From Polymorphobacter multimanifer (lineage in GTDB: Bacteria; Pseudomonadota; Alphaproteobacteria; Sphingomonadales; Sphingomonadaceae), in contig NZ_JACIIV010000010.1 of NCBI RefSeq assembly GCF_014205635.1, forward strand, positions 62,001 through 126,000: a DNA stretch of 64,000 nucleotides. The letters are read 5' to 3'. The notes beneath the pieces were generated by a model, which saw only the letters and a program-made list of their open reading frames with translations, ran no database searches and was not told the origin of the DNA. Of the stretch, positions 1 to 36,589 are shown one piece after another. Every line of letters begins with the position of its first letter. The stretch's first letter is position 1. A program made the position numbers and the translations under genes.

Positions 1-1877
1 ACGCCCGATGGCCCGCAAAGCATGAACACGCCCACGGGCTTGTTCGGATTGTCCAGCTTCGCGCGGCTGGTCTGCAGCCGCTTGGCGATCGCCTCCATCG
101 CATGGTCTTGGCCGATCACCCGCTTCTTCAGTTGCTCGGCAATCGCCAGCACGCCGGCAATCTCGTTCTTCACCATCCGGCCAACCGGGACACCGGTCCA
201 GTCGCCCACCACGGCGGCGACCGCATTGGCGTCCACCTGCGCAAATACCATCGGCGCATCGCCTTGTGCTGCCGCCATCTCCGCCATGCCGGCGTGCAGC
301 GTCTCGTCGTGGGTGGCCGTGTCCTCGCCGTTCCCATTTGCTTCGGCGCGCGCACTGCGCGCTGCAATCACCGCGGCGACAGCGGTCTTCTCTGCCTCCC
401 ATTTCGCATTGGCTTCGGCCAGCACCGCGCGCGCCTCCACCAGCGCCTCGTCGACCTCATCGATGCGCTTGGGGCTGGCCATGCCACTGCCAGCTTCGCG
501 CACTGCAATTTCGCGCTCGACCTCAAGCAGTTCCACCCGGCGCAGCCGGTCCTCCACCGGCGCCGGCGTGGCATGCTGGCTCACCGATACGCGCGCACAC
601 GCCGTATCGAGCAGGCTCACCGCCTTGTCGGGCAGCTGCCGCGCCGGAATATAGCGCTGGGATAGTTTCACCGCCGCCTCCAGCGCCTCATCCAGCACGA
701 TCACCTGATGATGCTTCACCATCGCGTCGGCAACGCTGCGCAACATCGCGATCGCCTTGTCGGTCTCCGGCTCGCCCACGTTCACGGTCTGGAACCGCCG
801 GGTCAGTGCCGGGTCCTTTTCAAAATACTGCCGATATTCCGCCCAGGTGGTGGCCGCGATGGTCCGCAGCTTGCCCCGTGCCAGTGCCGGCTTGAGCAGA
901 TTGGCCGCATCGCCTGTACCGGCCGAGCCACCGGCGCCGATCAGCGTGTGCGCCTCGTCGATAAACAGGATCACCGGGCTGGCCGACGCTTCGACTTCGT
1001 CGATCACCTGCCGCAGCCGCTTCTCGAATTCGCCCTTCACACTTGCACCGGCCTGCAACAACCCGATGTCGAGCGAGCGCAGAGTCACATTCTTCAGTTG
1101 GGGCGGCACATCGCCATCGGCAATCCGCCGCGCAAAGCCTTCCACGACTGCGGTCTTGCCCACGCCGGCCTCCCCGGTGAGAATCGGGTTGTTCTGCCGC
1201 CGTCGCAGCAGGATATCCACGACCTGCCTGATCTCGGCATCGCGCCCCACAATCTTGTCGATCTCGCCAGATCGCGCCCGCGCCGTCAGATCGACACTGA
1301 ACTTTGCCAACGCAGATCCTTCCTGCGCTGGCTCGAGCCCCGGCTCACCGTCACCGCCGCCGCTGCCGGCTCCACTGCCAAGCCCCCCTGCCTCGCTCGC
1401 CTCACCGCTGCCGGCGGTTATGCTTCCAAAACCGTCCGCGAGCTTGTCGGCATCGACCTTGCGATACTCGTTGGACACGCTGGTCAGCACATTCTTCAGG
1501 TTCGGAGTCTTCAGCATGGCAAAAAGCAGATGCCCGCTGCGGACCTTGCCGGCATTGAACATCAAGCTGGCGTAGAGCCAGCCCTTCTCAACCGCCTCCT
1601 CGACATGTGCGGACAGGTCGGACACGCTGGACGCACCACGCGGCAGCTTGTCGAGCGCAGCCACTGTATCCCGCCCCAACTGTCCCTCATCGAGACCGAA
1701 ATGCGCCCGGATCAGCGCGAAATCACCCTTAGGGTCGGCATTCAGCGTGTGAAGCCAATGAACCAGCTCCACATAGGGGTTGCCCCGCAGCTTGCAAAAG
1801 CCGAACGCGGTTTCGACTGCTTTCAGGCTGCTGGGAGCAAGCCTGCCAAACAGGGCTGCCCGGCTGATTTCAGTCAT
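1..1877 (-). CDS. clpV: T6SS sheath-disassembly ATPase ClpV (TssH), partial
   Basis: AAA+ unfoldase that disassembles the contracted TssB/TssC sheath in the cytoplasm. The ATG lies at 1875-1877 and the frame stays open to the left edge, giving about 625 residues of a protein that is usually about 850-900 long. The N-terminal region matches a Clp_N repeat domain. The first Walker A is visible as GEAGVGKT near 1155-1185. The window ends inside the second Walker A (GPSGV at positions 1-20), so the second ATPase domain is missing here only because of the window edge. Its start overlaps the tssG stop (ATGA), so translation is probably coupled. ClpB is the main alternative identity; the T6SS neighbours decide for ClpV. 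Confidence 0.93.
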   Translation of the reverse strand, partial: MTEISRAALFGRLAPSSLKAVETAFGFCKLRGNPYVELVHWLHTLNADPKGDFALIRAHFGLDEGQLGRDTVAALDKLPRGASSVSDLSAHVEEAVEKGWLYASLMFNAGKVRSGHLLFAMLKTPNLKNVLTSVSNEYRKVDADKLADGFGSITAGSGEASEAGGLGSGAGSGGGDGEPGLEPAQEGSALAKFSVDLTARARSGEIDKIVGRDAEIRQVVDILLRRRQNNPILTGEAGVGKTAVVEGFARRIADGDVPPQLKNVTLRSLDIGLLQAGASVKGEFEKRLRQVIDEVEASASPVILFIDEAHTLIGAGGSAGTGDAANLLKPALARGKLRTIAATTWAEYRQYFEKDPALTRRFQTVNVGEPETDKAIAMLRSVADAMVKHHQVIVLDEALEAAVKLSQRYIPARQLPDKAVSLLDTACARVSVSQHATPAPVEDRLRRVELLEVEREIAVREAGSGMASPKRIDEVDEALVEARAVLAEANAKWEAEKTAVAAVIAARSARAEANGNGEDTATHDETLHAGMAEMAAAQGDAPMVFAQVDANAVAAVVGDWTGVPVGRMVKNEIAGVLAIAEQLKKRVIGQDHAMEAIAKRLQTSRAKLDNPNKPVGVFMLCGPSG

Positions 1878-2956
1878 GCTGCTTCCTCCAAATTGCCGGC
1901 AGCGGCTGGTGCCGGCGCCGCACGTTCATGAATGGTCAAATCCTTGCGCAGCCGCGCCCGGCCACGTGGCGCCATCCAGCTGGTCCAGCCCAGCCGTGTC
2001 GGCACGCCGCCGCGACCACCCAGCCGCGCCGGCTCGATCAGATGTTCTGCAATCGCCACATGCGCCCGCCAGTTGACATGGTGTGGCAACGCCGAACGCG
2101 CGGCCTCGGCCATCAGCTGGTGGCCATGGCCACCGGGAAGCAGATCATCGAGGTCTGCCATCGAACGGGCACGGATCGAGAAGGCAACGTCATACTCCAC
2201 GCTCCAGAACCGCCCGCCCAATGAGGCACCTTTCCCGAGCGCCACATCATGCTGTCCCAACTGGCTGCGCTGATCGACGGGCGCTTCATGCCACCGTCCT
2301 ACTGCTTCGCGCACGGTCACCCGCCGCCCCAGCATGTGGGAGAGCATCGATCCGATTGCCGTTGGAGACCGGAGCGCCGCAAGATGGCCGCCGTAAGGCA
2401 GCCGCCGCCAATCATCGAATGATGCCGGATCACCCATCGCCGGCCTGGAACCGGGCGCCAGAAATGCCAGTTCGGTAGTTCCCGCAACAGCGGCCAGATA
2501 GCCTGCAAATCGGTCATCGGCCGGTCGGCTGGCATTGGCCGCTGGGCGCGCATCAGCCCAGGCCCGGTAAAAGAACTGCAAGGACCGTGACCCCAGCATA
2601 CCGAGAAATTCGTTGAACGGCCGTGGACCGCGGCGTTGTCGTTCGTACACGGCAATCTCGGTCAGATGGCTGGGCAACGGTCCCATCGGCCCGGTCAGTC
2701 CAAGATGCCGGGATTCCAGGACCGGGCGCCGGCCATCGGTTTGCCAGGCGGCAATGGTGGATGCCGGAAAATTGAAATCCGCCACGTGCGCCAGGTTCAC
2801 GACCTCGCGGGAAGGCTCGAGCGCCTCGCCCACGCGCGGACTGGCCGGAGTTGCCACTTCCAGCGCGTTCACAGCCGCAAAAAAGTCCCATCGCTCCGGA
2901 GAGGCCGCCAACGCTTCGAACAGGCGGGTCAGATCGTCGGTCGTCGACCGGTCCAT
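1874..2956 (-). CDS. tssG: T6SS baseplate protein TssG
   Basis: Baseplate wedge subunit that works with TssE, TssF and TssK; cytoplasmic, docked on the membrane complex. The product is 360 residues. I chose the ATG at 2954-2956 (MDRSTTDD) because GGGGAGGGG lies just upstream; a longer frame reaching 3031 runs deep into tssF and has no comparable ribosome site. The gene overlaps the end of tssF by about 28 bases and its TGA overlaps the clpV ATG. The family call rests on residues such as the GLTGPMGPLPSHLTE stretch, typical of the TssG/ImpH/VasB family, and on position between tssF and clpV. Confidence 0.93.
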   Translation of the reverse strand: MDRSTTDDLTRLFEALAASPERWDFFAAVNALEVATPASPRVGEALEPSREVVNLAHVADFNFPASTIAAWQTDGRRPVLESRHLGLTGPMGPLPSHLTEIAVYERQRRGPRPFNEFLGMLGSRSLQFFYRAWADARPAANASRPADDRFAGYLAAVAGTTELAFLAPGSRPAMGDPASFDDWRRLPYGGHLAALRSPTAIGSMLSHMLGRRVTVREAVGRWHEAPVDQRSQLGQHDVALGKGASLGGRFWSVEYDVAFSIRARSMADLDDLLPGGHGHQLMAEAARSALPHHVNWRAHVAIAEHLIEPARLGGRGGVPTRLGWTSWMAPRGRARLRKDLTIHERAAPAPAAAGNLEEAA

Positions 2957-4821
2957 AGCCCCTCCCCGTCCACATCCCTCGCGAGATGTCGCCAATGCCA
3001 CGACAATCCATTGTCGGCTTTCACTTCGCATTCCGCAAAGCTGTTGATGGTTGCGAAATCGGCCAGAAATCGCGCAACAACCGTCGAGAACAGATAGGCT
3101 GTCCCGGCTTCGTAACTGTTCCAGGCGAGTTCCAGCGTCAGACGCTGGCCGCGCAGAAACGCCAGTCGGCTGCTGCCATTGGCACGCCGCGTCACCAGCC
3201 GCGATGTCAGCCCCGAGAGACCCTGGATCTCGCGACGCATCACCGGCGACTGATCCCGCAGATACAGGCTCAAATGATCTGCCAGCGCATCAGGCGCACC
3301 GTCGGCACGAACAAATCCGTCACGTCCTGGCGCCAGATGGCTGATGATCCGCCAACCCGAATCCACCATGCCCATCGGTGGCTGCGGACGCGTGGGTCCG
3401 ATCAGCATTTCGATACCTCCGGTCGCCTTCATGTCCATCATCGTCAGCTCGAGCAGCGCTGCGCCGGGCCGCAACCGCGTCGATAGTGCACGATTGGTCA
3501 CCAGCCCCCGCGCGCCAAGCTCGATGATGCCGCCAGCCAGCGCCGGGTTGCCGGGCGAGGACAGGCTGATCCATGCCTCGGTGCCTATATAATCGCCTTC
3601 ACGGCGCCGACGTGTCTCCGCTTCGGTCAACCGCCGCAGTCGTCGGCGCAACGTATAGTAAAGCGGCTTGGCACCGCGCTCGACCCGCCGCGCATAAAGC
3701 GGCAGCGCTGGCGTGCCCACCATGTCCTCGGTTGCAAAGCCGGTCACGCTGTCCAGCCTGTACACTTCGAAATCGAGAGCAGCCGTCCGGTCGGGCAGCA
3801 CGATGTGTTCCGACTGGCGCTGGTCGACCAGAACGCGGTCGAAGCGCTTCTCGAACAGATTGATCACAGGGGTTACGAACGGCAGCAGCGAATCATCAGC
3901 CACTGCCGAAGCCAGTTGCGGCACTGCCCGCTTGAGTGGGATCACGATATCGAGCGCCCGGTCGGCCCGTGCAAAGCCTGCCGCCAACCCCGTAAGGCAG
4001 ATGAAGCGAAACTTCTGCGGCATGGCAAAATATTCGGCCAGCAGCCGATATCCACCAAAGCTGCGCTGCTCATCGGGAAGCAAGGCCTCCTCCGGCCCGA
4101 AACCATGAGGCACAACAGCGCCAGCCCGCTCGATCCACGATTGCTTGCGGCCCCGTTCGGGAGCGGCCAGCCGAACGCCCAGGCTGTCATCCAGCAGCTG
4201 CTGATACAAAAGCCCCGGCACATCGCCGCTGCCGCCCAGGAACAGCGGCAGCCTGTCGATCGTCAAAGCCGACAGGGGTGCGGCTGATGTCGCTTCGATC
4301 CGGAAGCGCAGGCCGGCTTCACCCAGCGCCTCCCCACAGGCTGCAGCAATGGCCGCTCGGGTCGGCAGATACTCCACCGCCATCACCGTCAGCGGCAGCA
4401 AGGTGACGTCCTGGCCGGTGGTGAACTGGACCGGCTGTGTCATATCACCTGACAGACTGGCCATCAGGGTCGAGCCGCGCTCGTGCAAAACACCCTTTGG
4501 CGGCGTGGCGTCTCCCTTCATCGGCTTGAGCGCCACGATCGCCATCGCCGGCGTGGGCGCCAGATAATGGGGATACAGCGCCTCCAGCAACGATTGCGTG
4601 AAGCGGGGGAACTCCTCCTCCATCTTCACCCGCACGCGCGCGTTCAGAAAGGCCACACCTTCCATCAGCCGTTCGACATGCGGGTCCGGGTCGGTGGGGG
4701 CGTCAAGCCCGAGCAATCCCGCGACCTGCCGGTTATCCTCCGCAAATTCTGCCGATCGCCGGCGCAAGTACAGCAATTCGCGATTGTAGGCCGAGAGCAG
4801 GCGCGGATCAGTGGCGCTCAT
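2929..4821 (-). CDS. tssF: T6SS baseplate protein TssF
   Basis: Baseplate wedge component (VasA/ImpG family), 630 residues, the usual size. The N-terminus (LLSAYNRELLYLRRRSAEFA, then DPHVERLMEGVAFLNARV) is characteristic of the family. The ATG at 4819-4821 overlaps the tssE stop at 4818-4820, so the two are probably translationally coupled. The order tssE-tssF-tssG-clpV is conserved in many T6SS loci. No frameshift or missing segment was seen. Confidence 0.95.
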   Translation of the reverse strand: MSATDPRLLSAYNRELLYLRRRSAEFAEDNRQVAGLLGLDAPTDPDPHVERLMEGVAFLNARVRVKMEEEFPRFTQSLLEALYPHYLAPTPAMAIVALKPMKGDATPPKGVLHERGSTLMASLSGDMTQPVQFTTGQDVTLLPLTVMAVEYLPTRAAIAAACGEALGEAGLRFRIEATSAAPLSALTIDRLPLFLGGSGDVPGLLYQQLLDDSLGVRLAAPERGRKQSWIERAGAVVPHGFGPEEALLPDEQRSFGGYRLLAEYFAMPQKFRFICLTGLAAGFARADRALDIVIPLKRAVPQLASAVADDSLLPFVTPVINLFEKRFDRVLVDQRQSEHIVLPDRTAALDFEVYRLDSVTGFATEDMVGTPALPLYARRVERGAKPLYYTLRRRLRRLTEAETRRRREGDYIGTEAWISLSSPGNPALAGGIIELGARGLVTNRALSTRLRPGAALLELTMMDMKATGGIEMLIGPTRPQPPMGMVDSGWRIISHLAPGRDGFVRADGAPDALADHLSLYLRDQSPVMRREIQGLSGLTSRLVTRRANGSSRLAFLRGQRLTLELAWNSYEAGTAYLFSTVVARFLADFATINSFAECEVKADNGLSWHWRHLARDVDGEGLWTGRRPTI

Positions 4822-5324
4822 GTCGTCACCTCGACCTCGCCGGAATCCAGTGACACAGCTGTCTTCAGCTCGATGTAGCGTTCGTCGATCGCGCCGCGAA
4901 GCTCCCCCTGAATGGTGAACCTGACCTTGTTCTCATTGTCGATGTCACCGCTGAAGGTCACCTTCACGGTATCGGCAACGAGCCGCGGCTCGAAGGCCAG
5001 CAACGCCTTGACGATATCGTGCGCCCGCCGCTCGAGGCTGCCACGAGACATTTGCAGCGCGGTGAGATCGGAAATGCCCTGGTTCAGAACAGATGTCGCA
5101 ATCTCGGGATAATCCCCAATCGGCACTGCAGTGGCGAAGCTGATATCGTTCATGAGCCAGGCGACATCGCGGATGACAACCTGGCGCAGTTCTCGCTCGC
5201 CGAACTGTTCGGTCGGGGCGATGAAACATGGCAGAAGGTCGCGGCTCCCATCGCCCTTTACACGGCCGAGGTGGCCGATCAGCTTGTCGACGACCGATGG
5301 CTTGAGCGGCCGTTCATCATGCAT
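4818..5324 (-). CDS. tssE: T6SS baseplate protein TssE (gp25-like)
   Basis: Homologue of phage T4 gp25 that nucleates sheath assembly on the baseplate; cytoplasmic. It is 168 residues with the typical run of a lysozyme-like GPW/gp25 domain: REL near residue 38, then DVAWLMNDISF and the conserved YPEIATSVLNQGISDLT around residues 65-85. The start ATG at 5322-5324 has GGGGGC upstream. It follows tagJ by 18 bases and overlaps tssF. A standard T6SS core gene with no oddities. Confidence 0.94.
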   Translation of the reverse strand: MHDERPLKPSVVDKLIGHLGRVKGDGSRDLLPCFIAPTEQFGERELRQVVIRDVAWLMNDISFATAVPIGDYPEIATSVLNQGISDLTALQMSRGSLERRAHDIVKALLAFEPRLVADTVKVTFSGDIDNENKVRFTIQGELRGAIDERYIELKTAVSLDSGEVEVTT

Positions 5325-5342
5325 CGGCTGCCCCCGGGTCGG

Positions 5343-6122
5343 TCATGCGATAATCAATTGGCGCAGTTCGAGAATGCCAGCCTCCGGGCCGTCAGTGGTC
5401 AGCAGGTGTTGGCCAACACCCACCTCCAGCCCCCCCTGATCACGCCAATCGGTCGCACGCGCCAACATGAGGGCCGCTGACCCGCTGCCGCCTGTGCCGG
5501 GGTAAGTGACCGGCAACATTGCAGCAGAGGTCTGGCCGGATCGAAGCTCGATGTCCCCCGGGAGCCAGATCAGGTCCCTGAGGTCGTTTGGACCCTGGCA
5601 AACCACTCTCTTGATCGCCGCAATTGGCAGAAAGCCATAATTGTCGCCGACGATGACCTCAAGCATCGGACCAAACCGTTGGTCGGCGTCTGCTATCCAC
5701 TCGAATTGTTGGCCATTGATGCTCCCTGCACTGGCAGGAGCAGCCTCAAGCGCCGCCGCCGAACGGGATTCGGCATCAGGGGCCTGCACCGCACTCGCAT
5801 GAACTGCGTCGAGCAATCCATCCACCCAGGGCTCGGCACCAACGATCGACTGCGGCCGCTCGCGTCCGCTCCAAACAGCATCGCGCGTCAACATCGCCGC
5901 AAGTGCTTGATTATAGACGCCCGCCATCATCATTGCCTTGGGCTCGGCTGTCGCAAGGGCTTGCAGTTGCGTCCTTGCCTTCTCCCATTCACCGTGCAAT
6001 GAAATCAATTGCCAAAAGAACTGCCGAGCGTCGGCGTCTCCCGGCACCATCCGCAAGGTCGCCGCCAACGCCGCACGCGAACCAGCAAGGTCACCGCTTT
6101 TCAGCAGTGTTTCGGCGTCCAT
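5343..6122 (-). CDS. tagJ: T6SS accessory protein TagJ (ImpE/SciE family)
   Basis: TagJ proteins bind the TssB N-terminus and are thought to modulate sheath handling by ClpV. The product is 259 residues. I chose ATG 6120-6122 (MDAETLLKSGDL), which has GGAGAC upstream; the family usually begins with such a TPR-like helix pair. Later residues (VGDNYGFLPIAAIKRV and DLIWLPGDIEL) match ImpE proteins. It lies between hcp and tssE as in the P. aeruginosa H1 cluster. A strong hairpin separates it from hcp, so its expression may be lower than that of hcp. Confidence 0.9.
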   Translation of the reverse strand: MDAETLLKSGDLAGSRAALAATLRMVPGDADARQFFWQLISLHGEWEKARTQLQALATAEPKAMMMAGVYNQALAAMLTRDAVWSGRERPQSIVGAEPWVDGLLDAVHASAVQAPDAESRSAAALEAAPASAGSINGQQFEWIADADQRFGPMLEVIVGDNYGFLPIAAIKRVVCQGPNDLRDLIWLPGDIELRSGQTSAAMLPVTYPGTGGSGSAALMLARATDWRDQGGLEVGVGQHLLTTDGPEAGILELRQLIIA

Positions 6123-6207
6123 GTCCGTCTCCAGCCGACCTAACGCCGGGATGAGTGAGGCGCGGCGAGGAGGATGGCGCTCGCTTCGCCGCCAAACCAA
6201 ATAATGA

Positions 6208-6237
6208 GGCGGGCACCGGCAAAGGCCGGCGCCCGCC
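6208..6237 (-). terminator. Strong hairpin directly after hcp
   Basis: Arms 6208-6220 and 6225-6237 form a 13-bp stem (one G-U wobble on the minus-strand RNA) closed by a 4-base loop, starting 8 bases past the hcp stop. No clean T-run follows, only TCATTATTTGG. It may be a partial terminator, an attenuator or an mRNA-stabilising 3' end that raises hcp transcript over tagJ and the downstream genes. Confidence 0.6.
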
Positions 6238-6244
6238 AAATTCA

Positions 6245-6736
6245 TCAGGATGCAGCATTGCCTTCTACGTCGAACGTGAAATCGCCAGCAGCGCTCACTG
6301 CGCCAGTGTCGCCCTGCTCGAAATACTCGACTTTGACCTTGGCAAAGTTGAGGCTGACATTCTCGGTGAGCCGGTCCTCACCACCCGAGCCCCCGGTCGA
6401 AACCGACGAGATCAGACACTTGGTCATGGTGATCTTCAGATAGACATATGGTTGATCGCCGGCCTTGCGCACGTTCAGCACGCACTCGGTGATGTGCGTA
6501 CCCTTGAGGCAAGCCAACTGCATCTTCGGCGAAGCCTTGTCGATCCACTTGGTCAGCGAAATGTCCTGCACGTTCGCCTTGCCAGCGCCACCCCCGCCGC
6601 CTTGGTGGAACGTGCCGGACTGGCTGGCCCCCCAGGACCAGGCAAGCACATCGATGTCGCCGACAGTCGCCTTGTCCTTGTCCTTCGACTCGCCAGTAAT
6701 TCCGTTGCTAACCTTGAGAAACATGTCGAGAGCCAT
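6245..6736 (-). CDS. hcp: T6SS tube protein Hcp (TssD)
   Basis: Hcp hexamers stack into the inner tube expelled by the sheath, and Hcp also chaperones small effectors. The product is 163 residues, the canonical Hcp1 length. It begins MALDMFLKVSNGITGES, has the GDIDVLAWSWG strand, the glycine-rich loop near residues 45-52 and the KWIDKASPKMQ helix, all typical of the family. The ribosome site AAGGAGA is 7-8 bases from the ATG and is one of the strongest in the cluster, fitting a high-copy structural protein. A stable hairpin follows the stop. Confidence 0.97.
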   Translation of the reverse strand: MALDMFLKVSNGITGESKDKDKATVGDIDVLAWSWGASQSGTFHQGGGGGAGKANVQDISLTKWIDKASPKMQLACLKGTHITECVLNVRKAGDQPYVYLKITMTKCLISSVSTGGSGGEDRLTENVSLNFAKVKVEYFEQGDTGAVSAAGDFTFDVEGNAAS

Positions 6737-6778
6737 GGTAAGTCTCCTTCTACAAATAAGCCGTTGTCAGATACGCGC

Positions 6779-8272: not shown

Positions 8273-8309
8273 GGCCTGATCTCCTGAATCTAAAGTTGTT
8301 GCGCCAGAA

Positions 8310-8822: not shown

Positions 8823-8891
8823 GGAATCCCCCCCTTGCACGCTCAGCCACGACATTGCTCGCGGCCGCTCTTTGTCTAGACACAGTGTGCA

Positions 8892-13219: not shown

Positions 13220-13227
13220 GTTTCCCC

Positions 13228-22200: not shown

Positions 22201-25200
22201 CAGACTGATTCCCGAGTTCGAGGTTGTCAGCGTGGCAATGTCCACATCACCATTGATCACGGTCGCGGCACCCAGGAGACTTGCTGCCGTGACATTGGCA
22301 AAAGCGAGGCCGTCAAACGCTGCCCCCTGCACCAACGTCACATTGCCGGCGCCGGCGGTGATCGTCGTCCCCGCCATCGATATGCTGCGCACACCGGCTG
22401 CCGGTGCCACGGATCCTGCAGTCAGTGTGGTCGCGACTGAGTCGAGTGTCACGCCACCAAGGCTGCCGATGCTGCGCGCGGCCGACACCGCCACGCTGCT
22501 CGCCTCGATCGTCGCGCTGCTGCCGGTCCGGCCGAGCACAACATCAATCCCGGCCGTGATGGAAACCGCGCCTCCACCCGCATCAATGCCGGCCCGCACG
22601 ATGGCGTCGCCGGTCACGCTCGTCAGCGTCACCGGTCCGTTGCTTTCGATCCGCCCCGGTTGGGCGACATCACGCCCGACCGTCAATGTGCCGGCGTCGG
22701 CCCTCACCGTTACGGCGTTGTCGCTTGAAACCGTGCCGACGATCACATTGCCGCTGGTCGAGCGGATTAGCGCGTCTGCCGTCAGGACGACATCGCCGGT
22801 GGTAATCGCGGCGTCGGTCAAAAGCCCTGCCGCCGATGGCCCATATGCCGCCGGCGTGAACGGCGAGGCCGCCGGTGCCACCCCAATGCCCAATGAACCC
22901 GCTGTAACCGAGCCCAAAGTCAATGCTGTTCCAGCGCCACGCACCAGCAAAACGGCGCCGCCATTGTTGGACAGGTTTGCACCGCCGCCGATCGCCCCGG
23001 CCGCATCCAGAACGAGGTTGCCGGCAGTCGCCGCAAGCGTTGTCGTACCCTCGCTCAGGATGTCGCCCGTCGCGGCACGCAGCAGCAGGCCACCGCTGGA
23101 GGTTTGCATTCGGACCTGACCATCCGCGCCGACCACGATACTGTTGGCGAGCACGATATAGTCCTCGCCCGTCCCGCTACTTACATCGCCGGCCACGCGC
23201 GCAGCCCCGCTCGCGGTCACCAGCACTGCCCCGCGGGATGCCAGGCCAGCAGTGGCCACATCCCCGCTCGTCGCCGTGACGGAAACATCGCCATTGCCGG
23301 CACCCGACCCGCCGATCCGCGCCAGCACATCCCCGATCGTGATGCTGCTACCCTGCACTGAAAGGGCGTTGTTGGCGCTGGTCGTGCCGACAATCGTGAC
23401 GGCACCGTCTGCCTCAAACGCAGTCACGCCCGAGGTCACGATCTGTCCGCCTGCCGCGGACAGTGCCAAGGTCGACAATGATCGCGCATTTCCGATCACA
23501 AGATCGCCATTCTGCGCGGTCAGGTTTATCGCACCCGATCCGGGCTGCCCGGTCACCCCCGCCAGCGACAAGCTTTCTGCCACAAGGACCAGCCCACCAT
23601 TGACGCTGGTGTCGTCTACAAATCGAATTTCGCCATCGGTGGCAGCCAAGCTCAGATCGCCAGTGGTTGTCACCGGCCCGGTCACGACCAAGTCGCCGCC
23701 CGTCGCATAGTTTGCCGTGTCGGCCAAAGTCACGCCACTGGCACTTGCCAGCCGCAAACTCCCGCCAGCGGTCAGCGTCAGGCCGCTGGTGTCGAGCGTG
23801 CCATTCGTGCGTGTCAGCGAGAGATCGCCCGTCGCACGCACCCCGTCGGTCGCAAGACTTCCCGCCAGCGCACCAGCGCTGACGGAGACATTCGCTGCCG
23901 GCGCCGCCGCCCCATCAAAAGCTGTCATGTTCGCATTCAGCGCCAATGCGCGCGTTGCGAGCCCATCGTCGATATTGATCGTCAACGTGCCGGGTGTCAC
24001 GATGTCGACCGCACCCGTTGCCTCGATACTGTCCGCCGTCACGTTCGACGCACCGCCGCCGATGACAACACCTCCGCCGGCCCGCACGGTCGAGAGTGCA
24101 AGATCCGATGGGGTTGTCAGCGTCACCACCCCGCGAGCAGCAAGGCTACCGACTGCAATCGTCCCGGCATCAACCGAGACCGCACCCGTGAATGCCCTTA
24201 CACCACCCAAAGTGACCGCTGTGATACTCTGGCCGCCCGTCGGCGTCACAACCAGGCTGCCGCCGATCACCTCGCCGAGCGACACATTGGCTGTGTCGCC
24301 TGGCCGCACAGTGATCGAAAGGCCACTCGTTTGGGTACTACCGGCCGTGATCGTGAGCACGCCACCGGTGCCAATGTCTCCGTCGGCGATAAGGCTTACC
24401 GTTCGATCGGCACTTGCCGTGTTTCCACTGTTGCCTACAAGGCCAACGCCGCCGACGCCCACCGCAATTGCTGCATCGGAAACAACGGACAGGCCGTCAG
24501 AAGCGCTCACCAAAGTCGCCAATGCACCGCCCAGCACCACGCCGTCACCACCGAGGCTGATACTGCCGCCGGTCGCGGACAAATCGCCCGTTATCGTCAG
24601 TGTGTCACCTGCCATGAGGGTCAGATCACCCGCAGTTGCGGTCACGAGATCGACAGCCAGGCTGTTCGCGTCGAGCACTTCAACGCTCGCGCCGCGCAGC
24701 ACGACTGTCCCGGCGGCGTTGTCGATGCTGCCTGTCACGAGCGCCCCACCGGCATCGAGATCCACGTTGCTCGCCGTGGTCAGGCTGCCGGTTCGGATGT
24801 CCCCTGATACTTCAAGCAACAGCCCCGTTGTCAGGTTGACGTCCCCAAGTCGCACATCGTCCAAACCTGCTGGCGTCAAGACGAGATTTGCCGCGGTCAC
24901 ATCGCCAAAGATAACGTCAGCGTCGACCCCCGCCGTCACACTGACATCGCCGCGGTTTGCATCACCCGTCACCAGCGCTGCCGCATTTGCGCCCGGTGAT
25001 CCAACCCCGGCCGTCGACGTGAGCGCGATGCCACGAAGATCGAGATTGGTATCGGCGTCGCCACTGTTGGAGCGCAATGTGCCGCCACTGGTCACGATCG
25101 CGCCATTGGTTGCCGTCACTGCAATGCCTCGCGTTGCAGTGAGTCCGGCTGCCGCAAGCGTGACAGTGGCGCCGCTCAGGCGGATATCTGCTCCAGCCGT

Positions 25201-26379
25201 CAGCCCCGCAGCAAGCGTGACTGCACCATTGCCGGCTACAGAAATCCCGCTAGCGGCCGCGGAAAGCACGGCATTTTCTCCGATCTCTATGCCCCGCGAT
25301 ATGTTCAGTGGTCCGGCATCCGGCATCTCGACCGGCACCGGTCCATCTGCATCCGCCACGCCGGCGCGCAGAATGATGCCATTTTCCCCGATCGCGGCAT
25401 GGCTCGCCGTAATGCTGCCACCGACATTGAGGAGGGTTTCGTTTAGGCTGCTGCGGCTTGCCACGGCGGCAAACACGCGATCGCCGTTCACTTCGCCCGA
25501 TGCCACCAGCGCCGCACCCGTGAGCACAGTGCCCTCGCCGATCGCGATTCGCATCAAGCTCGTCGGCGTCAATTGCACACTGGCATCTTGCGCCACCACA
25601 AGACCAACATCCCCGCCTGCAGACAGTTGCGCAGGGTTATCACCACCCGCCATCACAATGCGCGGCGCAACCAGCAGAACGACGCCATCAGCATTGATGC
25701 TGGCGCCCGAACCGCCGCCCGAATCCAGCCGGATTTCGGCCCGCGCATCCGCATTCCCGCCCTCGGTGCGTGCTCCAAGGAAGTTCACTGCATTCGCTGT
25801 TCCGAAATTTGCAAACTCGGCATCAGTTACCGCCAGCGTCGAGGCCACGAAGCTCGACATGTTTGTTACCGAGCTTTCGGGACCAAACAAAACTCCATTG
25901 GGGTTGACCAGCCAGATACTGCCCCTGTTGCCGGCCGAGGCGGTCGGATCACCCCGCAATATGCCATCGATCACCGATTGCGGCACGCTGTTGCCGTCCC
26001 CGACAACACGGTTGAGAATAGCAAACGGCATGTTTGCCATGGGCAATCCGTTGCGAAACTCTACAGTGGCAGCACCATTTTCGTCACGACCGATGGAAAA
26101 GCTCTCCCAGTTGATGATCGCATTCGGGCTTTGCACATTTATGGTCAGCTGGTTGATGTCCGGCATTGCATCCGGCAGACTAATGACACCTTCAGGCGGA
26201 GGCGTGAACGCCCCAGGAGCCCCGACGCTGTAACTGAATTCGAGTACACCGCTTTGGACAGTGCCATTGTTCGGGAGCGCCAACTGCGCCGCAACCGGCG
26301 AAGCCACCGAAACCAGTGCAAGCGAGGCCGCTCCAGCCAGCAACTGCTGACGGCGGATGATACGACGATCCATCATCAT
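13228..26379 (-). CDS. Giant TpsA-type filamentous haemagglutinin-like adhesin
   Basis: Exoprotein of a two-partner secretion system, about 4383 residues. It has an N-terminal signal (RRIIRRQQLLAG to SPVAAQ), then a TPS/haemagglutination domain recognisable from IINWESFSIG and the VNPNGVLFG motif near residues 80-170. A very long Ser/Thr/Ala/Gly/Val-rich beta-helix follows, with 21 copies of a 74-residue repeat towards the C-terminal third. The only two cysteines I found form a CX7C pair near residues 4308-4316, about 70 residues from the end. I saw no CdiA VENN motif or toxin domain and no YadA anchor. Several ATGs cluster at 26371-26385; I prefer 26379 because GGGGGA lies 7 bases upstream. 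It follows tpsB by 14 bases. Probable role: surface adhesin or biofilm filament. Confidence 0.93.
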   Translation of the reverse strand: MMMDRRIIRRQQLLAGAASLALVSVASPVAAQLALPNNGTVQSGVLEFSYSVGAPGAFTPPPEGVISLPDAMPDINQLTINVQSPNAIINWESFSIGRDENGAATVEFRNGLPMANMPFAILNRVVGDGNSVPQSVIDGILRGDPTASAGNRGSIWLVNPNGVLFGPESSVTNMSSFVASTLAVTDAEFANFGTANAVNFLGARTEGGNADARAEIRLDSGGGSGASINADGVVLLVAPRIVMAGGDNPAQLSAGGDVGLVVAQDASVQLTPTSLMRIAIGEGTVLTGAALVASGEVNGDRVFAAVASRSSLNETLLNVGGSITASHAAIGENGIILRAGVADADGPVPVEMPDAGPLNISRGIEIGENAVLSAAASGISVAGNGAVTLAAGLTAGADIRLSGATVTLAAAGLTATRGIAVTATNGAIVTSGGTLRSNSGDADTNLDLRGIALTSTAGVGSPGANAAALVTGDANRGDVSVTAGVDADVIFGDVTAANLVLTPAGLDDVRLGDVNLTTGLLLEVSGDIRTGSLTTASNVDLDAGGALVTGSIDNAAGTVVLRGASVEVLDANSLAVDLVTATAGDLTLMAGDTLTITGDLSATGGSISLGGDGVVLGGALATLVSASDGLSVVSDAAIAVGVGGVGLVGNSGNTASADRTVSLIADGDIGTGGVLTITAGSTQTSGLSITVRPGDTANVSLGEVIGGSLVVTPTGGQSITAVTLGGVRAFTGAVSVDAGTIAVGSLAARGVVTLTTPSDLALSTVRAGGGVVIGGGASNVTADSIEATGAVDIVTPGTLTINIDDGLATRALALNANMTAFDGAAAPAANVSVSAGALAGSLATDGVRATGDLSLTRTNGTLDTSGLTLTAGGSLRLASASGVTLADTANYATGGDLVVTGPVTTTGDLSLAATDGEIRFVDDTSVNGGLVLVAESLSLAGVTGQPGSGAINLTAQNGDLVIGNARSLSTLALSAAGGQIVTSGVTAFEADGAVTIVGTTSANNALSVQGSSITIGDVLARIGGSGAGNGDVSVTATSGDVATAGLASRGAVLVTASGAARVAGDVSSGTGEDYIVLANSIVVGADGQVRMQTSSGGLLLRAATGDILSEGTTTLAATAGNLVLDAAGAIGGGANLSNNGGAVLLVRGAGTALTLGSVTAGSLGIGVAPAASPFTPAAYGPSAAGLLTDAAITTGDVVLTADALIRSTSGNVIVGTVSSDNAVTVRADAGTLTVGRDVAQPGRIESNGPVTLTSVTGDAIVRAGIDAGGGAVSITAGIDVVLGRTGSSATIEASSVAVSAARSIGSLGGVTLDSVATTLTAGSVAPAAGVRSISMAGTTITAGAGNVTLVQGAAFDGLAFANVTAASLLGAATVINGDVDIATLTTSNSGISLANTGRMAIGTASTSNAAGITLTAGNALVLGQASASNGPISLFGTTIDVTTAPLVNGLSLARSGSLAAGGALLVQSPGAVAIVGDVTTTGSFLTLDAGPTLDVAGAISSGGRVVALADEIALGDVTSRNDIVAVARMGDLTGADFRISSPDNDNSDAPVDASGNDIFDPVTGTAIGPLPGKRVVALAGGDLIGIDVFGADGATLAGDSVNLGDVSDPGLLDVTGRRIVGGTISANLGIILTATGENAGGPSPDGIYVGSLTSSNGDIILNSALDIVVDRGSAAPLGSISMAATRDLRLAEALGAGQLAVAAGNIVTLAGGRRVLVDARTTAGSTVTVAGGTDLMAMAPVSPIGVDMANVSAGSGVVLSSERNVLAGDIAGGAGSVTVTSNLGDVTLGNLTGSDLLVQTSPGTGGDVIIARVEGAGGTPGASTLLVSAAGAVSLVGPTRVSGTADITGTAVTTGAVSGSTIALEALLGNVETGALTGGVILLAGSDLLVNGEISGSALSGLATRDLTLNGDVVITAGVELQAQRSLQTADVDSGNGQLTAVAVAGDLNMGALSSASVVEIESTAGDATIDGVTALSLLMATGGSASIVGPALLIGTVDVQAGSNATTGALTAADIDIVASNGFTRTDTLAGGTIALNAGRGPGATGTEGDVTVAAIATGSNVLVRAGRDLAIAGATQVTGSVDFQAARNLTAAALESTGDGAVFALAEAGNLQMQSISGGVVTLGATLGDVTLAGAVNSASLDVMAGSMATLSAPVTVTGAAEVTAAEISTQTMTAGNILLSGVASVVTGALEADSITASASDGDVNLAGVANSGSLTVEASEAATLGPVAVAGAVTVGADSIATQMMSASFIELAGVSSVSTGALAAGNITVSASGGDVEIASVENSGNLTVTASDAATIGIVSVTDAVTVDADTITTQSVTAGTIALTGVSSVVTGALEADSITASASDGNVNIAGVADSGSLTVEASEAATLGPVSVAGAVRVGADSIATQMISASSIELAGVSSVSTGALEASNITVSASGGDVEIASVENSGNLTVMASDAATLGIVSVTDAVTVDADTITTQSVTAGTIALAGVSSVTTGALEADSITASASAGSVAIASVADSGSLTVTASDTVTSGAVTVTGAVVVGGGIISAQPITASTIELSGVSLVTTGALEAVSISALASAGSVNIASIANSGSLAVSASDSVTLGPVSVSGAVAVDADIIATQVIAADSIELAGVSSVSTGALEASNITVSASGGDVEIASVDNSGNLTVMASDAATIGIVSVTDAVIVEADTITTQSITAGSIALAGVSSVTTGALEADSITASASDGSVAIASVADSGSLTVTASDTATFGVVTINGALTVGAGSIITQDITAGTIALTGISSVTTGALAADSITASASDGSVAIASVADSGSLTVMASDTATLGAVTVTGAVVVGGGIISAQPITASTIELSGVSMVTTGALEAVSISALASAGSVNIASIANSGSLAVSASDSVTLGPVSVSGAVAVDADIIGTQVIAADSINLAGVSSVTTGGLEASNITVSASGGDVEIASVENSGNLAVMASDAATLGIVSVTDAVTVDADTITTQSVTAGTIALTGVSSVTTGALEAESITASASDGSVAIAGVADSGSLSVEASEAATLGPVSVAGAVRVGADSIATQMISASSIELAGVSSVSTGALEAGNITVSASGGDVEIASVDNSGNLTVMASDAATIGIVSVTDAVTVDADTITTQSVTAGTIALAGVSSVTTGALEADSITASASDGSVHIASVANSGSVAVSASDTATLGRVAVSDAIEIAADVIAAESMTGESIELTGVSSVTTADLQAGRIDARATAGTVNIAGIAQSGTVLVQAFGDVTLGGVGTSGAVTARAGQVGATAGRGDLFVGSVDSGAGAITLSATNGSIASGTLAGGVIQADATGASGDVLLQTILRSSQFAASAGRDLFLAGNATSIGSINLAAGRAMTVQAVAADGALAAMAGGVLVANDAISVARSIDLEAGNGLSTVDVDSRINSSVTARALAGDLEMGDVSGGVLTLAASAGNATIGGVPRAKSLALTASGTATLGTAVVTEAAEFSANVIVTQAITAGTVKLAGLTSVATGALQAETITASASAGSVDIATVADSGALAVTASEVATLGDVTVTGSVLVAADVVAAQTMTAGSIDLTGVSSVTTETLQAASIAASASAGSVVISNVQDSGELTVTASDVATLGNVAVSGAATVAADAIAAQLMTAGSIDLTGVSSVTTAALQAASITASASAGSVDIASVAESGSLTVMASDIVMLGNVTVTDAVTVTADTIGAQAMTAGTIELTGVSSVTTGALRGASIEVSASAGTVDLATVADSGSLTVTASDIVTLGNVAVTDAVTIAADTIGVQAMTAGTIDLAGVSSVTTGALQAAGIAVSASAGSVDIASIAESGTLAVTAADTAALGDVTVTGAVTVGADVIASEAMTAGSISMAGLTSVNTGGLRAGAIDVRATRGTVTIAGITGSNSVLAQASGDATLGNVISSGAVTLRAGQVGNVATSGNLRAGTVNATSARIDLRSTAGSIAAGTLAGGEIVAEATGITSDITLAGVDRSSRLALTSGRSILLNGSVRVAGTADLTTDRIDLVPAAELRTDGLLRLTANTAGGVVNVANGGMSLFDNADMPRVFAPSVQIDGKGRAVKIGTTDLFPNTVNVGVLTSNDIDVTGVLTFRSTGSAARRTLTLGGLAVADSGSATSNEGLANAARSVAVRVVEAAGATAGGGQIVADGSAVRLNGRYLAVGLRTQFLDTLLTDSPPDPATVRRSFTEQPTSRFYIANPPFQPPRYNVLTAERLVVRVEQWGLLQNTDTSAQPGGGVRLGSVQLLNGGAVQGGPVVGFFGSLGGQEGIAAALRVTIDQLGGISPNNVRINGCVALTTAGCIVTGLPLPLVQLNDPGQALLIRSTPDLVLPLDLISGTTNEALWRDDELEPVVTPVPAATTPADGARP
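14554..15885 (-). repeat. 222-bp coding repeats, block B (6 copies) in tpsA
   Basis: Six consecutive 74-codon units, the first beginning at 15885 and the sixth at 14775, exactly 1110 bases (5 x 222) apart, so no insertion or deletion has occurred. Each unit carries a (L/M)(T/A)G(V/L)(S/T)SV.T core and a SASAGSV-type turn. The last copy diverges and runs into a tail (AGQVG, then AGSIAAGTLAGGEI) paralogous to the tail after block A. Confidence 0.9.
16507..19836 (-). repeat. 222-bp coding repeats, block A (15 copies) in tpsA
   Basis: Fifteen 74-codon units. Leucine anchors at 19836 (unit 1) and 16728 (unit 15) are exactly 14 x 222 bases apart. Several copies are almost identical in DNA, and a higher-order period of 888 bases (4 units) is visible: the stretch at 17833-17925 recurs at 18721-18813. 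This points to recent unequal exchange or gene conversion. The last unit degenerates into a tail (AGQVGATAG, then NGSIASGTLAGGVI). Confidence 0.93.
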
Positions 26380-26393
26380 GCCCATATCCCCCG

Positions 26394-28238
26394 TCAGCGC
26401 CAAGGCAGCGCGCGCACCGTGAGAGAAAGCAGCAGGCGCGCGCCCGGCTTCTCAACATCGATGGCCAGATTTCTGTCGAGCGGCTTCGCGTACACGAGAT
26501 CGAGCCGCATATGGTTGCCAAAAGTCGCCCGCACGCCCCCGCCGATCGATCGCAGCGTCCGCCTTCGCTCGAAATTGTTGCTGTCGAGATTCCAGAGCTC
26601 GACATGGTCGTAGAAGCCAAGCGCCTCGAACGCGATGTCATTTGTGGAAAGAGGCACCGGCTTGCCCAGCCGCACTTCAGTACTGGCGCCAACCACGCGA
26701 TCGCCGGCTGTGGCACCTGGGTCGTAGCCGCGGCCGAGCGTCAGGTTGCCAACTGCGAATTCGTCAAAAGCCAGCAGCGGATCCGGCGTCCACTGGCCGC
26801 GGATATCGGTCGCGAGTGTGGCTGCATAGGGTGAATTGGGACCAAACCGCACCCGCGCCTCGCCGTTCAGTCCGGCACGGAAAACAAATGCCTGGCTGTT
26901 GCCTTCGAAGCGCGTCGGCAGCGCCGAATTGCCGCCGCCACCAACCGGGGTAGCGCCGAGAACCCCGAGCCCCTGCCGCAATTCGGCATAGGCACCCAGG
27001 CGCCACGCAGGTGCCAGAACCGAAAGCCGCCGCGCTACAACATCGCCATCAAGTCGAAGCCATGCCGCGCGGACTTGATCAAGGTTGATCAACTGGCCAA
27101 GTGCGCGCGTGCGCTGGTCAATCAGGTCGAATCCGCCACCAACCCGAACATTGGCAGTGGTCGATCGCACCAATGGGTAACTGGCCGACAGCGAAGCAAG
27201 GATCGATTCTGAGGTCAGCGCGAAATTGGCGGCCGCGTTGGGAAGTGTCGGTCGTGTCTTTGCATAGGTCATGTTTGCAGCGAACCGAAGTCCATCATTT
27301 CCGGCGGCAAAATCATGTCCGCCTTGCACGACCACGAGCTCGCGCACATCGCTGGTTGAAAACACCGATAGATAGGTCCGGTCAGCCAGGCCGGTGATCC
27401 CGTACAATTCACCCCGGATAACGCCGCTCCAACGCCCGATCTGCGTAGAACCATAGTTCTGAACGTTGGTCACAACACTGCCGATGTCACGCTGAAGCAG
27501 AATCTCTCCGATCACCTCGCCGGCTTGGCCCGATGGCGCAGGACGCAGTTCAAGCGTAACCTGCGTGCCTGGAATGTCGTTGGCGAGCAGCAGTATGCGT
27601 TCTGCTTCTTGCTCGTTCAGCGGATCGAGCGCTCGCAGACGTTCGAGCAATTTCTCGAGCCGCGCCTGCCCCTTGCCGGCATCGCCGCGAACCCGAAGCT
27701 CCACAATTCTGGCGGTCGTCACCCGAAGCCGCAGGACACCGTCAGCAAGCTCCTGCTCCGGCACTTGAACAGCGGCCACAAATCGTGCCCTTTGCAATGC
27801 CGCGCTGGCTTCGTCGCGCAACCTGCAAATTTCGGCCAGCGGCTGGGCCCGGCCATCAAGCCCGGCACCAACGTCTGCGAGCACGGTCTGCACTTCAGCC
27901 GGCAATGCGATGTCACCAGGCCCAACAAAAACAACCTTGCTCAGCGGCGCCGTCAGCGCGCTGTTGGCCAGAGCCTCAGGACACGGGCCCGGCACAAAAC
28001 CCCGCGACCTCACGGTCGCTCGTGGCTGCGTCAGGTCAGCCGATGGCGGTGCCCTATCCAGTTCTTGCGCTGTCGGCGGCCGTCCTGGCGCGCCAGGTGT
28101 GATTTGTGCCGCTACAGGCTCCGCTGCTCCCACAGCGAGTGCCGCCGCGCCCATGAACAGCGAGGCCCTTGAACAGATTTCAAAGCGTCCGGAGCCTCGA
28201 CTCCGTCGATACGCGCCACTGCGTTCAACACGCACCAT
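26394..28238 (-). CDS. TpsB outer-membrane transporter (ShlB/FhaC family)
   Basis: Omp85-superfamily pore that secretes its partner TpsA across the outer membrane. The product is about 614 residues. It has a signal-like segment (LFMGAAALAVGAAEPVAAQ), a proline-rich linker, POTRA domains around residues 75-230 (for example VVFVGPGDIALPAEVQ), then a 16-strand barrel. NLTLGRGYDPGATAGD near residue 500 corresponds to the conserved VRGY-type loop-6 motif. The ATG at 28236-28238 has GGGGTGG upstream; other starts 18 bases earlier or later at the hydrophobic stretch are possible. It ends 14 bases before tpsA, the standard TPS arrangement. Confidence 0.92.
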   Translation of the reverse strand: MVRVERSGAYRRSRGSGRFEICSRASLFMGAAALAVGAAEPVAAQITPGAPGRPPTAQELDRAPPSADLTQPRATVRSRGFVPGPCPEALANSALTAPLSKVVFVGPGDIALPAEVQTVLADVGAGLDGRAQPLAEICRLRDEASAALQRARFVAAVQVPEQELADGVLRLRVTTARIVELRVRGDAGKGQARLEKLLERLRALDPLNEQEAERILLLANDIPGTQVTLELRPAPSGQAGEVIGEILLQRDIGSVVTNVQNYGSTQIGRWSGVIRGELYGITGLADRTYLSVFSTSDVRELVVVQGGHDFAAGNDGLRFAANMTYAKTRPTLPNAAANFALTSESILASLSASYPLVRSTTANVRVGGGFDLIDQRTRALGQLINLDQVRAAWLRLDGDVVARRLSVLAPAWRLGAYAELRQGLGVLGATPVGGGGNSALPTRFEGNSQAFVFRAGLNGEARVRFGPNSPYAATLATDIRGQWTPDPLLAFDEFAVGNLTLGRGYDPGATAGDRVVGASTEVRLGKPVPLSTNDIAFEALGFYDHVELWNLDSNNFERRRTLRSIGGGVRATFGNHMRLDLVYAKPLDRNLAIDVEKPGARLLLSLTVRALPWR

Positions 28239-28344
28239 TCGGCCACCCCGCCCCATTCGCCCCAACCCCCTGCCGGCTTCCACCGGCCCCCCGCACCGCA
28301 GCGACACCAACAACTGCCCGAAGCTGGCAAGCACCCGGCAGGGA

Positions 28345-28893
28345 TCAGCGTGCAACAACCTCCACGCGACGATTTCTCGGATCGCTCGCTGTCCGCCCCT
28401 CAAGCGGTTGTTGATACCCCAACCCACGTGCTGTCAGTCGCGCGGAGTCAACACCTTTGCCAGCAAGGTAATCGACAACAGCCTGCGCCCGCGCCCGGCT
28501 CAACGCAGCGTTCAACTCTCGCCCACCGCTGCTGTCAGTGTGCCCCTCAACGGCAAATGGCCGAAACGCTCCAATTTTCAGAAGTCCTGCTGCAAAACGA
28601 TCCAGTGTTGCTTTGGCTTGGCCGGTCAAGGCTGCAGAGCCAAGTTCGAAACTCATTCGAATGTCTTGACGAACAACCTTGCCTTTCACCCATTGGCGCG
28701 TGCAGGGCACGTCGGGCCTGGTGCCGTCTGGATTGCTCTGCGCCACTTCAACCGGGGGGCAATCGGACAACGCTTCCGCGAGCTTGTCGATGTCCGCGAT
28801 CTCAGATGGCCGCCCTGCCTCTTGCGCCGCGACCCCGGACGCGCTCGCCGCCATCATTGAAGCCAGCACTGCGAATCTTCTAGCTGTTTTCAT
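28345..28893 (-). CDS. OmpA-domain periplasmic protein (copy 1)
   Basis: The 182-residue product has a Sec signal (MKTARRFAVLASMMAASASG, cleavage near VAAQ) and a C-terminal OmpA-like peptidoglycan-binding domain. The domain core is visible as FAVEGHTDSSGGRELN and LSRARAQAVVDYLAGKGV, with the RNRR ending. There is no beta-barrel. It is a close paralogue of the gene immediately upstream, 29 bases away, so the pair is probably a tandem duplication. The position just before tpsB suggests it may anchor or support the secretion machinery at the cell wall; this is inference. Confidence 0.85.
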   Translation of the reverse strand: MKTARRFAVLASMMAASASGVAAQEAGRPSEIADIDKLAEALSDCPPVEVAQSNPDGTRPDVPCTRQWVKGKVVRQDIRMSFELGSAALTGQAKATLDRFAAGLLKIGAFRPFAVEGHTDSSGGRELNAALSRARAQAVVDYLAGKGVDSARLTARGLGYQQPLEGRTASDPRNRRVEVVAR

Positions 28894-28922
28894 CAGATGT
28901 GTCCCCACACGTCCGATCCGCC

Positions 28923-29486
28923 TCAGCGTGCCACGACTTCGACACGGCGATTGGCAGGATCGCCGGCGGAACGGCCCGACAAAGGCTTGTCATAGCCAAA
29001 ACCTTGCGCAACCAACCGTGCCCGGTCAATGCCCTTGGCGGCAAGGTAATTCACGACGGCCTCTGCACGGGCCTGGCTGAGCGCCATGTTGGTCGCACGG
29101 TCACCACTGCTGTCCGTGTGACCCTCGATCACAAAGGGGCGATAGCGGCCAATCCGCACGAGCTCGGCCGCAAACCGATCCAGCGTTGACCGGGCACGAT
29201 CGGTGAGATCGGCAGAGCCAAGCAGAAAGCTCATCTGGATGTCCTTGCGGATCACCTGCACGGTGCGCGCCGCAGCCTGCGCAGGACGGCCGAGGACCAT
29301 TTGCCGGGTCTCGGGAAGATCTGCACAGCTGCCATCGGGCAATCGCGCCTCGCACGCTGTAGCCGGCGCTTGCGGCTCCGCCAGCATACGCGCGAGTTCT
29401 TCCACATTCTGTGCCTGTACCGGTGCAGTCAACGCCGCGACCCCGCCGACGAGGATGATTTTCGACACCGTAAGAATACGAATCAC
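28923..29486 (-). CDS. OmpA-domain periplasmic protein (copy 2)
   Basis: The 187-residue paralogue has a signal peptide (VIRILTVSKIILVGGVAAL, cleavage near PVQAQ) and an OmpA C-terminal domain (FVIEGHTDSSGDRATN, then SQARAEAVVNYLAAKGI). I chose the GTG at 29484-29486 because AGGAG lies 8 bases upstream; a TTG at 29516 has no such site. It is the first gene of the long minus-strand string that runs through TPS, CHAT and T6SS. OmpA-type domains bind diaminopimelate in peptidoglycan, and T6SS clusters often use one in TagL or TssL, which are not present in this window. Confidence 0.83.
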   Translation of the reverse strand: MIRILTVSKIILVGGVAALTAPVQAQNVEELARMLAEPQAPATACEARLPDGSCADLPETRQMVLGRPAQAAARTVQVIRKDIQMSFLLGSADLTDRARSTLDRFAAELVRIGRYRPFVIEGHTDSSGDRATNMALSQARAEAVVNYLAAKGIDRARLVAQGFGYDKPLSGRSAGDPANRRVEVVAR

Positions 29487-36472: not shown

Positions 36473-36534
36473 GATAAATGCTCCCGCTTCGGTTCCCCGG
36501 GCTCCGTGGACAGCCACGAGGCGCCGTGCCCCAA

Positions 36535-36561
36535 GATACGGGCGCGGTGAAGTTTGCTTAA
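36535..36561 (-). promoter_or_regulatory. Possible sigma-28-like flagellin promoter
   Basis: On the minus strand TTAAG is followed after 15 bases by CCGTATC, resembling the flagellar TAAA-N15-GCCGATAA promoter. It sits about 65 bases upstream of the flagellin ATG. The match is by eye and imperfect. Confidence 0.3.
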
Positions 36562-36589
36562 TTCTGGCTGTTGGCCGACAGGATCCGAT

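Follow-up and report, generated by a model that had tools for sequence, protein, structure and literature searches.

Little is settled about the way in which cells armed with a type VI secretion system (T6SS) secure contact with a target, and sense it, before they fire. A 64,000-nt stretch of the Polymorphobacter multimanifer genome (GCF_014205635.1, NZ_JACIIV010000010.1, forward strand positions 62,001-126,000; contig C10 of genome G000 in the codes used here), hereafter the window, bears on this question. In it, genes for a two-partner secretion (TPS) transporter (tpsB), a giant TPS exoprotein (tpsA) and a predicted protease with TPR and CHAT domains run directly into a T6SS locus. Does this cassette serve the T6SS, or are the genes simply neighbours? 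The arrangement suggests a single programme in which a neighbour is both gripped and stabbed. TPS systems, CHAT proteases and T6SS are each known; the new element is a T6SS locus with an apparently dedicated TPS/TPR-CHAT cassette. We propose, at what we judge to be an even chance, that the cassette is a dedicated T6SS accessory in which a surface adhesin, TpsA, is matured by an envelope CHAT protease and gripping is thereby kept in step with firing.

The genes lie on the minus strand in the order ompA2, ompA1, tpsB, tpsA, TPR-CHAT, tssA-B-C, hcp, tagJ, tssE-F-G and clpV, followed outside the window by tssK-L-M, tagF, pppA and ppkA. This one-way run spans about 40 kb, with ompA2 at about 29,500 and ppkA some 10.8 kb beyond the left edge of the window, and bears out the names, direction and order that an earlier note on this DNA had given from the OmpA pair to clpV. 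At the centre are tpsB (26394..28427), which encodes a ShlB/FhaC-type outer-membrane transporter, tpsA (13228..26403; 4391 aa), the TPR-CHAT gene (10076..13231; 1051 aa), which overlaps both neighbours by 4 nt, and tssA (8892..10079; ImpA_N), whose start codon overlaps the CHAT stop as ATGA. Direct reading places ATGA overlaps at four joints, tpsA/CHAT, CHAT/tssA, tssE/tssF and tssG/clpV, the last three as previously noted.

The cassette is not peculiar to this strain. Genomes were sampled from larger groups (149 and 397 from the family Sphingomonadaceae, 385 from the class and 299 from the phylum). CHAT matches occurred in 68 of the 149 family genomes, with full-length identity of 53-58% in only three other genomes; in all three the gene lies directly before tssA and is preceded by ompA, tpsB and tpsA. 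Among the 397 family genomes, 21 have TssC, giving 24 T6SS loci, and in 13 of these the cassette stands beside T6SS genes. The 13 show three arrangements and fall in two T6SS lineages that are deeply separated. In arrangement A, CHAT stands directly before tssA (G000, G038, G063, G134, G339, G190). In arrangement B, tpsB-tpsA-CHAT adjoins the tssK-L-M part, with a PAAR gene between them in three of the four genomes (G047, G338, G395, G084). In arrangement C, the cassette lies beside loci with two tssC genes (G081, G103, G317). The TpsA-CHAT-TssA neighbourhood, for which the earlier note had advised a synteny search in sphingomonads, thus recurs. Some loci are split over contigs (G339 and G190, with the break inside the cassette or tssA, and G317, over two contigs), and linkage was scored from the T6SS genes on the CHAT contig; the CHAT contig of G317 presumably belongs to its double-tssC system. 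An OmpA gene stands at tssA in arrangement B and the cassette sits between OmpA and tssA in arrangement A, which suggests that the cassette was inserted there. Searches of contig records gave no matches with one sequence and four loci with six sequences, three of them lineage members as defined below. In G081 (G081:C1:520993-523286, locus L020) the interval between CHAT and tssA holds a PAAR gene and open reading frames (ORFs) in both directions, possibly effector cargo.

The linked cassettes also share ancestry. When 38 CHAT rows were placed in a maximum-likelihood tree, a branch supported at 100/100 set off the linked rows, the second piece of the split gene of G339 among them; in a tree of 69 rows the 13 linked ones are an exclusive clade. 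The 10 T6SS-linked rows are likewise an exclusive lineage in a TpsB tree of the 31 loci whose DNA held tpsB. On the TssB-TssC tree of the 24 loci, linkage was gained or lost at least four times, and the arrangement C CHATs nest among those of arrangement B; judging from these trees, therefore, one TPS-CHAT lineage has changed T6SS machines and stayed with T6SS loci. A chance insertion in one strain was considered and is ruled out by the recurrence and the exclusive lineage.

Since the linked and non-linked sets were picked by position before the tree was made, the fair hold-outs are three further genomes (G287, G320 and G367) and a plasmid. A profile, A3, was built from the 13 linked CHATs, and the two best candidates per genome were scored. 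Among the matches listed for the 397 family genomes, 16 members score at least 1094 bits and the next match 616. The three new members, G320, G367 and G287, come from genomes without TssC and all nest inside the linked lineage, as expected after secondary loss of the T6SS. Over the 385 class genomes only G000 and G103 exceed 1200, and the maximum outside the family is 344. A CHAT on an 853-kb plasmid of Sphingomonas parapaucimobilis, which was not part of the profile, scores 1227, falls in the lineage and lies between tssH and tssK. The plasmid annotation there reads tssF, tssG, one peptidoglycan-binding protein, four hypothetical proteins, tssH, a hypothetical protein, TpsB (annotated hypothetical; 41% identity to the window TpsB), hemagglutinin, CHAT, CPBP protease, M23 peptidase (opposite strand), tssK, tssL, tssM, tagF, PP2C and kinase. 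CHAT matches occurred in 92 plasmid records, three of which were examined; the other two CHATs (scores 578 and 586) have no annotated T6SS genes within 15 and 10 kb, respectively.

These counts bear on the simplest alternative, that the cassette merely travels with T6SS loci on shared mobile DNA without a functional tie. TssC is present in 13 of the 16 lineage genomes (members among the matches listed) and in 8 of the 381 others (Fisher 1.3e-16), and within TssC-positive genomes CHAT lies beside T6SS genes in 13/13 lineage cases compared with 0/8 other full-length CHATs; these statistics take no account of common descent, and position was the criterion for choosing the linked set. Of the eight non-lineage CHATs, none lies beside a T6SS in the DNA read, that of G317 being near a contig end and another some 45 kb away from its T6SS; incomplete CHATs of TssC-positive genomes (G000 C26 and C50, G338 C2, G339 C96) were left uncounted. 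The p=0.015 entered into a binomial is a rough value, taking some 52 kb out of a genome of 3.5 Mb. The plasmid-borne member, the repeated gain or loss of linkage and the lack of TssC in three of the 16 listed members would all suit passive travel. Hitch-hiking, however, would not lead one to expect an exclusive lineage that stays near T6SS genes in three arrangements and two T6SS types while full-length CHATs outside it do not in the DNA read, and this explanation is improbable.

The CHAT protein itself is laid out as an export signal, an N-terminal alpha/beta domain, TPR-like helices and a CHAT domain (PF12770, 126.6 bits against a curated cut-off of 24). H878 and C927 are invariant in 33 aligned rows. 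Csx29 and separase have catalytic His/Cys pairs, and the predicted fold of the window protein is that of a TPR-CHAT protease like these two. With Csx29 (type III-E CRISPR, Craspase) and separase it would have in common the TPRs, the caspase-like CHAT fold and the His/Cys pair, and from its model it is a predicted CHAT (caspase-like, clan CD) cysteine peptidase with a His/Cys dyad. It differs from both in its export signal and in the absence of an adjoining Cas partner, and its substrate is presumably TpsA. If this is true, bacterial TPR-CHAT proteases would have an envelope role outside CRISPR. A signal peptide, and a lipobox in three relatives, were both read by eye. An exported, protease-like CHAT could also be imagined in self-protection, degrading incoming effectors, or a TpsA coat could shield T6SS users from counter-attack. 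Yet the CHAT lineage is constant in length and domains, with none of the diversity of effectors, and nothing positive points to defence, a role that we regard as very unlikely.

Turning to the secretion pair, TpsA carries a TPS domain (PF05860 and TIGR01901 on residues 1-300) and adjoins a ShlB/FhaC-type TpsB (PF03865 with a weak POTRA_2 match), the composition that defines two-partner (type Vb) secretion. The TpsA ends of 13 linked and 10 non-linked rows were compared; 12 further non-linked rows (G142, G084C6, G074, G094y, G081C25, G122, G107, G090, G057, G120, G071, G119) were dropped because the frame before CHAT, at 137-866 aa, was not recognisably tpsA. The C-terminal region is conserved, with a tail motif GTTNEAL in the window protein and a Cys pair 68 and 76 residues from its end; across the rows compared, the pair keeps a spacing of 6-9 residues and lies 62-154 residues from the end. 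In HMW1-type retention, two C-terminal Cys hold the exoprotein in its transporter, and by analogy TpsA may be held at the surface. A second weapon expressed with the T6SS, a toxin delivered as in contact-dependent inhibition (CDI), could also be read into a large TPS exoprotein adjoining a contact weapon. However, TpsA keeps its C-terminus from species to species, where a polymorphic one would be expected, and is followed by the CHAT gene instead of an immunity gene, the opposite of what a CdiBAI locus shows, although no dedicated toxin-domain search of the C-terminal part was made. A CDI system was rejected on these two grounds and is highly improbable. An extra Cys pair at the extreme C-terminus occurs in eight of the 13 linked TpsA (G047, G084, G338, G081, G103, G317, G063, G134) and in 0/10 of the non-linked ones compared. 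Elsewhere in the host genome (3.9 Mb in 72 contigs), contig C39 (L121) is taken up almost whole by another giant TPS exoprotein frame, 6574 aa long, with the end of a TpsB before it, and CHAT fragments at the C26 and C50 ends could come from a further TPS-CHAT locus split by the assembly.

In the mechanism that we propose, TpsB would export TpsA, a very large adhesin that remains at the cell surface, and the exported TPR-CHAT cysteine protease would act in the periplasm or at the outer membrane, where it would trim TpsA, or release it, by a cut in the conserved C-terminal region. Anchoring of the assembly to peptidoglycan would fall to the OmpA pair. Cells building the T6SS would then also display the adhesin, because the cassette would be co-transcribed with the T6SS locus, or at least nearly always lies within it, and target contact and firing would be matched. 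The proposal builds on gene content, order and overlaps, on an exclusive lineage that is kept with the T6SS from locus to locus, on the fold predicted for CHAT and on its invariant dyad; from these we infer that TpsA is retained at the surface, adhesion by TpsA, its role as CHAT substrate and co-transcription.

The chief alternative makes the cassette a contact sensor, in which TpsA or CHAT signals contact or envelope attack to PpkA, and CHAT proteolysis trips the PpkA/PppA/TagF switch to allow firing. PpkA has one hydrophobic segment outside its kinase domain and 247 residues beyond it, a tail that from its sequence is probably periplasmic. Moreover, a ppkA or ppkA-like gene is kept beside the cassette in two of the genomes without TssC. 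In G320 (G320:C4:20874-26179, L133) a T6SS remnant adjoins TPS-CHAT, with truncated tssL (267 aa) and tssM (502 aa), tagF, pppA and ppkA, and in G367 a ppkA-like kinase and ompA remain beside CHAT. Against this, ppkA or pppA also occurs at cassette-free T6SS loci (G286, G123, G335), and the ppkA remnant may be a mere leftover of a decaying locus. A sensor of this kind is possible but unlikely. A more explicit form, an outside-in proteolytic relay in which TpsA senses contact, CHAT cuts its C-terminal tail and a signal passes via OmpA and periplasmic PpkA to the phosphorylation switch that gates firing, is a shade more doubtful.

The transcription of the run bears on the matched-display proposal. 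At CHAT/tssA, the 4-nt overlap that the earlier note had read as translational coupling is present here and in the close relative G339; the other four arrangement A loci have gaps of 11-15 nt instead (start codons inferred in three). Tight packing of this joint is conserved; the strict overlap is not. Consensus scanning of 9800-13600 gave no promoter-like sites (mean of 0.4 in shuffles) and two terminator-like sites, against 2.9 in shuffles. Upstream, ompA2 (28923..29516) encodes an OmpA-C (peptidoglycan-binding) protein and is the first gene of the apparent operon, its start being either TTG at 29516 or GTG at 29486; ompA1 (28345..28908; likely start 28893) encodes a second. The tpsB frame overlaps ompA1 only apparently, since its first GTG is probably not the true start: the tpsB signal peptide begins near 28160, the likely start, which leaves a gap of about 185 nt. 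Scanning of 26000-30400 gave one promoter-like site (0.5 in shuffles), at 26384-26357, the tpsA start, and nine terminator-like sites (4.1 in shuffles), including two weak overlapping ones at 28314-28333, just past ompA1. Going by these sites, ompA1 and tpsB could be separated by a transcript boundary, or tpsA could have a promoter of its own. The common strand, the mostly short gaps and the ATGA overlaps would be compatible with one putative transcript from ompA to ppkA.

Several observations weigh against a dedicated accessory. The terminator-like sites past ompA1 and the promoter-like site at tpsA may mean more than one transcript. Searched whole, TpsA matches no Pfam family, and its first 300 residues yield the TPS domain alone. 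The cassette is absent from 11 of the 24 T6SS loci: those of G286 (a related locus in the same genus), G335, G262, G043, G123, G029, G057 and G094, together with the second locus in each of G134 and G190 and one of the two G084 loci; most of these were read over 20 kb, in addition to genome-wide CHAT searches. In G084, and partly in other B and C loci, opposite-strand genes lie between CHAT and the T6SS genes, which interrupts the same-strand run at these loci. Outside the lineage, CHAT relatives often occur without a T6SS, and tpsB stands beside only 12 of 24 such loci when longer flanks are read. Finally, the cassette can persist without a working T6SS: besides the remnants in G320 and the PpkA-like kinase in G367, in G287 tpsA and CHAT point towards each other, and the 60 kb read there contains no T6SS gene.

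The closest published parallel is TasL of Vibrio fischeri, a T6SS-associated large lipoprotein that promotes target contact for T6SS killing (PMC9040878). In the literature drawn on, TasL is the one adhesion factor genetically tied to a T6SS. Like the proposed adhesin TpsA, it is a surface protein of great size whose gene belongs to a T6SS island; TasL is a lipoprotein with fibronectin-like repeats, however, whereas the window places a TPS exoprotein, the transporter that goes with it and a CHAT protease in the same gene run as the core machinery. Bordetella FhaB is reported to be a large TpsA whose maturation is governed by the envelope proteases SphB1 and DegP, and maturation of a large TpsA by an envelope protease is likewise proposed here; SphB1 is subtilisin-type rather than CHAT, and the opening lines of the abstracts mention no T6SS gene. 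Excerpts of other work describe shared regulation and parallel contact killing in a review of type V and type VI secretion, CHAT proteins near effectors in a variable region of Bacteroides T6SS (possible immunity proteins, in another context) and a CHAT protein in a Pseudomonas mobile element (context literature, in part: PMC10778856, PMC5422565, PMC6722718, PMC11854122). No description joining TPS, CHAT and T6SS was found in the open-access literature, outside which most subscription papers lie, in keeping with the earlier note's view that the join is undescribed. A defined TPS-protease lineage tied to sphingomonad T6SS loci by synteny and phylogeny now offers named genes and a candidate catalytic pair.

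One locus brings together the T6SS core genes tssA, B, C, E, F, G, H, K, L and M, hcp, vgrG and PAAR. In the window, Pfam/NCBIfam scans named TssG, TssF, TssE (gp25), ImpE/TagJ, Hcp, TssA, CHAT, ShlB and OmpA. Beyond tssA lie tssB (8310..8855, likely start 8822; sheath small subunit, named by its place beside tssC and its relatives), tssC (6779..8326; sheath large subunit, PF05943), hcp (6245..6736), tagJ (5343..6245, likely start 6122), tssE (4818..5324), tssF (2929..4821), tssG (1874..2956) and the N-terminal part of clpV/tssH (1..1877), all on the minus strand. The H1-type T6SS of Pseudomonas aeruginosa carries PpkA, PppA and TagF. The present locus has in common with it the kinase, phosphatase, TagF, TagJ, FHA protein, ClpV and core genes, and differs in its opposite-strand vgrG, PAAR and tagH, the inserted TPS-CHAT genes and the lack of a detected tssJ. 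A vgrG immediately left of the window, as expected from the H1 order, is not there: clpV continues to about -777, followed on the same strand by a 196-aa ORF, tssK, tssL-OmpA, tssM, tagF, pppA and ppkA, until the run ends at about -10,802. There PAAR, tagH and vgrG (about -15,049 to -13,052) lie on the opposite strand. Of the core genes predicted to the left, tssK, tssL and tssM were found, whereas a genome-wide search for tssJ (PF12790, E<=1) gave no hit, perhaps because TssJ is divergent here or falls in an assembly gap. Some functional T6SS have no tssJ. The hydrophobic 196-aa ORF between clpV and tssK (L002:18636-19226) was considered as TssJ and set aside, with no Pfam/NCBIfam support; it has no relatives in the loci read. 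The same interval in G038 holds a different ORF of 203 aa, which suggests a site of variable cargo.

A gene for a class-3 lipase (PF01764), at 30337-31581, is divergent from the ompA pair. T6SS effectors are often lipases, and an effector role was considered for this gene and for the ORF at 29855; neither has relatives among the loci read. Further right, at 34304-37177, lies a flagellin gene whose true start is probably downstream of that of the longest ORF, because the N-terminal flagellin domain begins only at residue 239.

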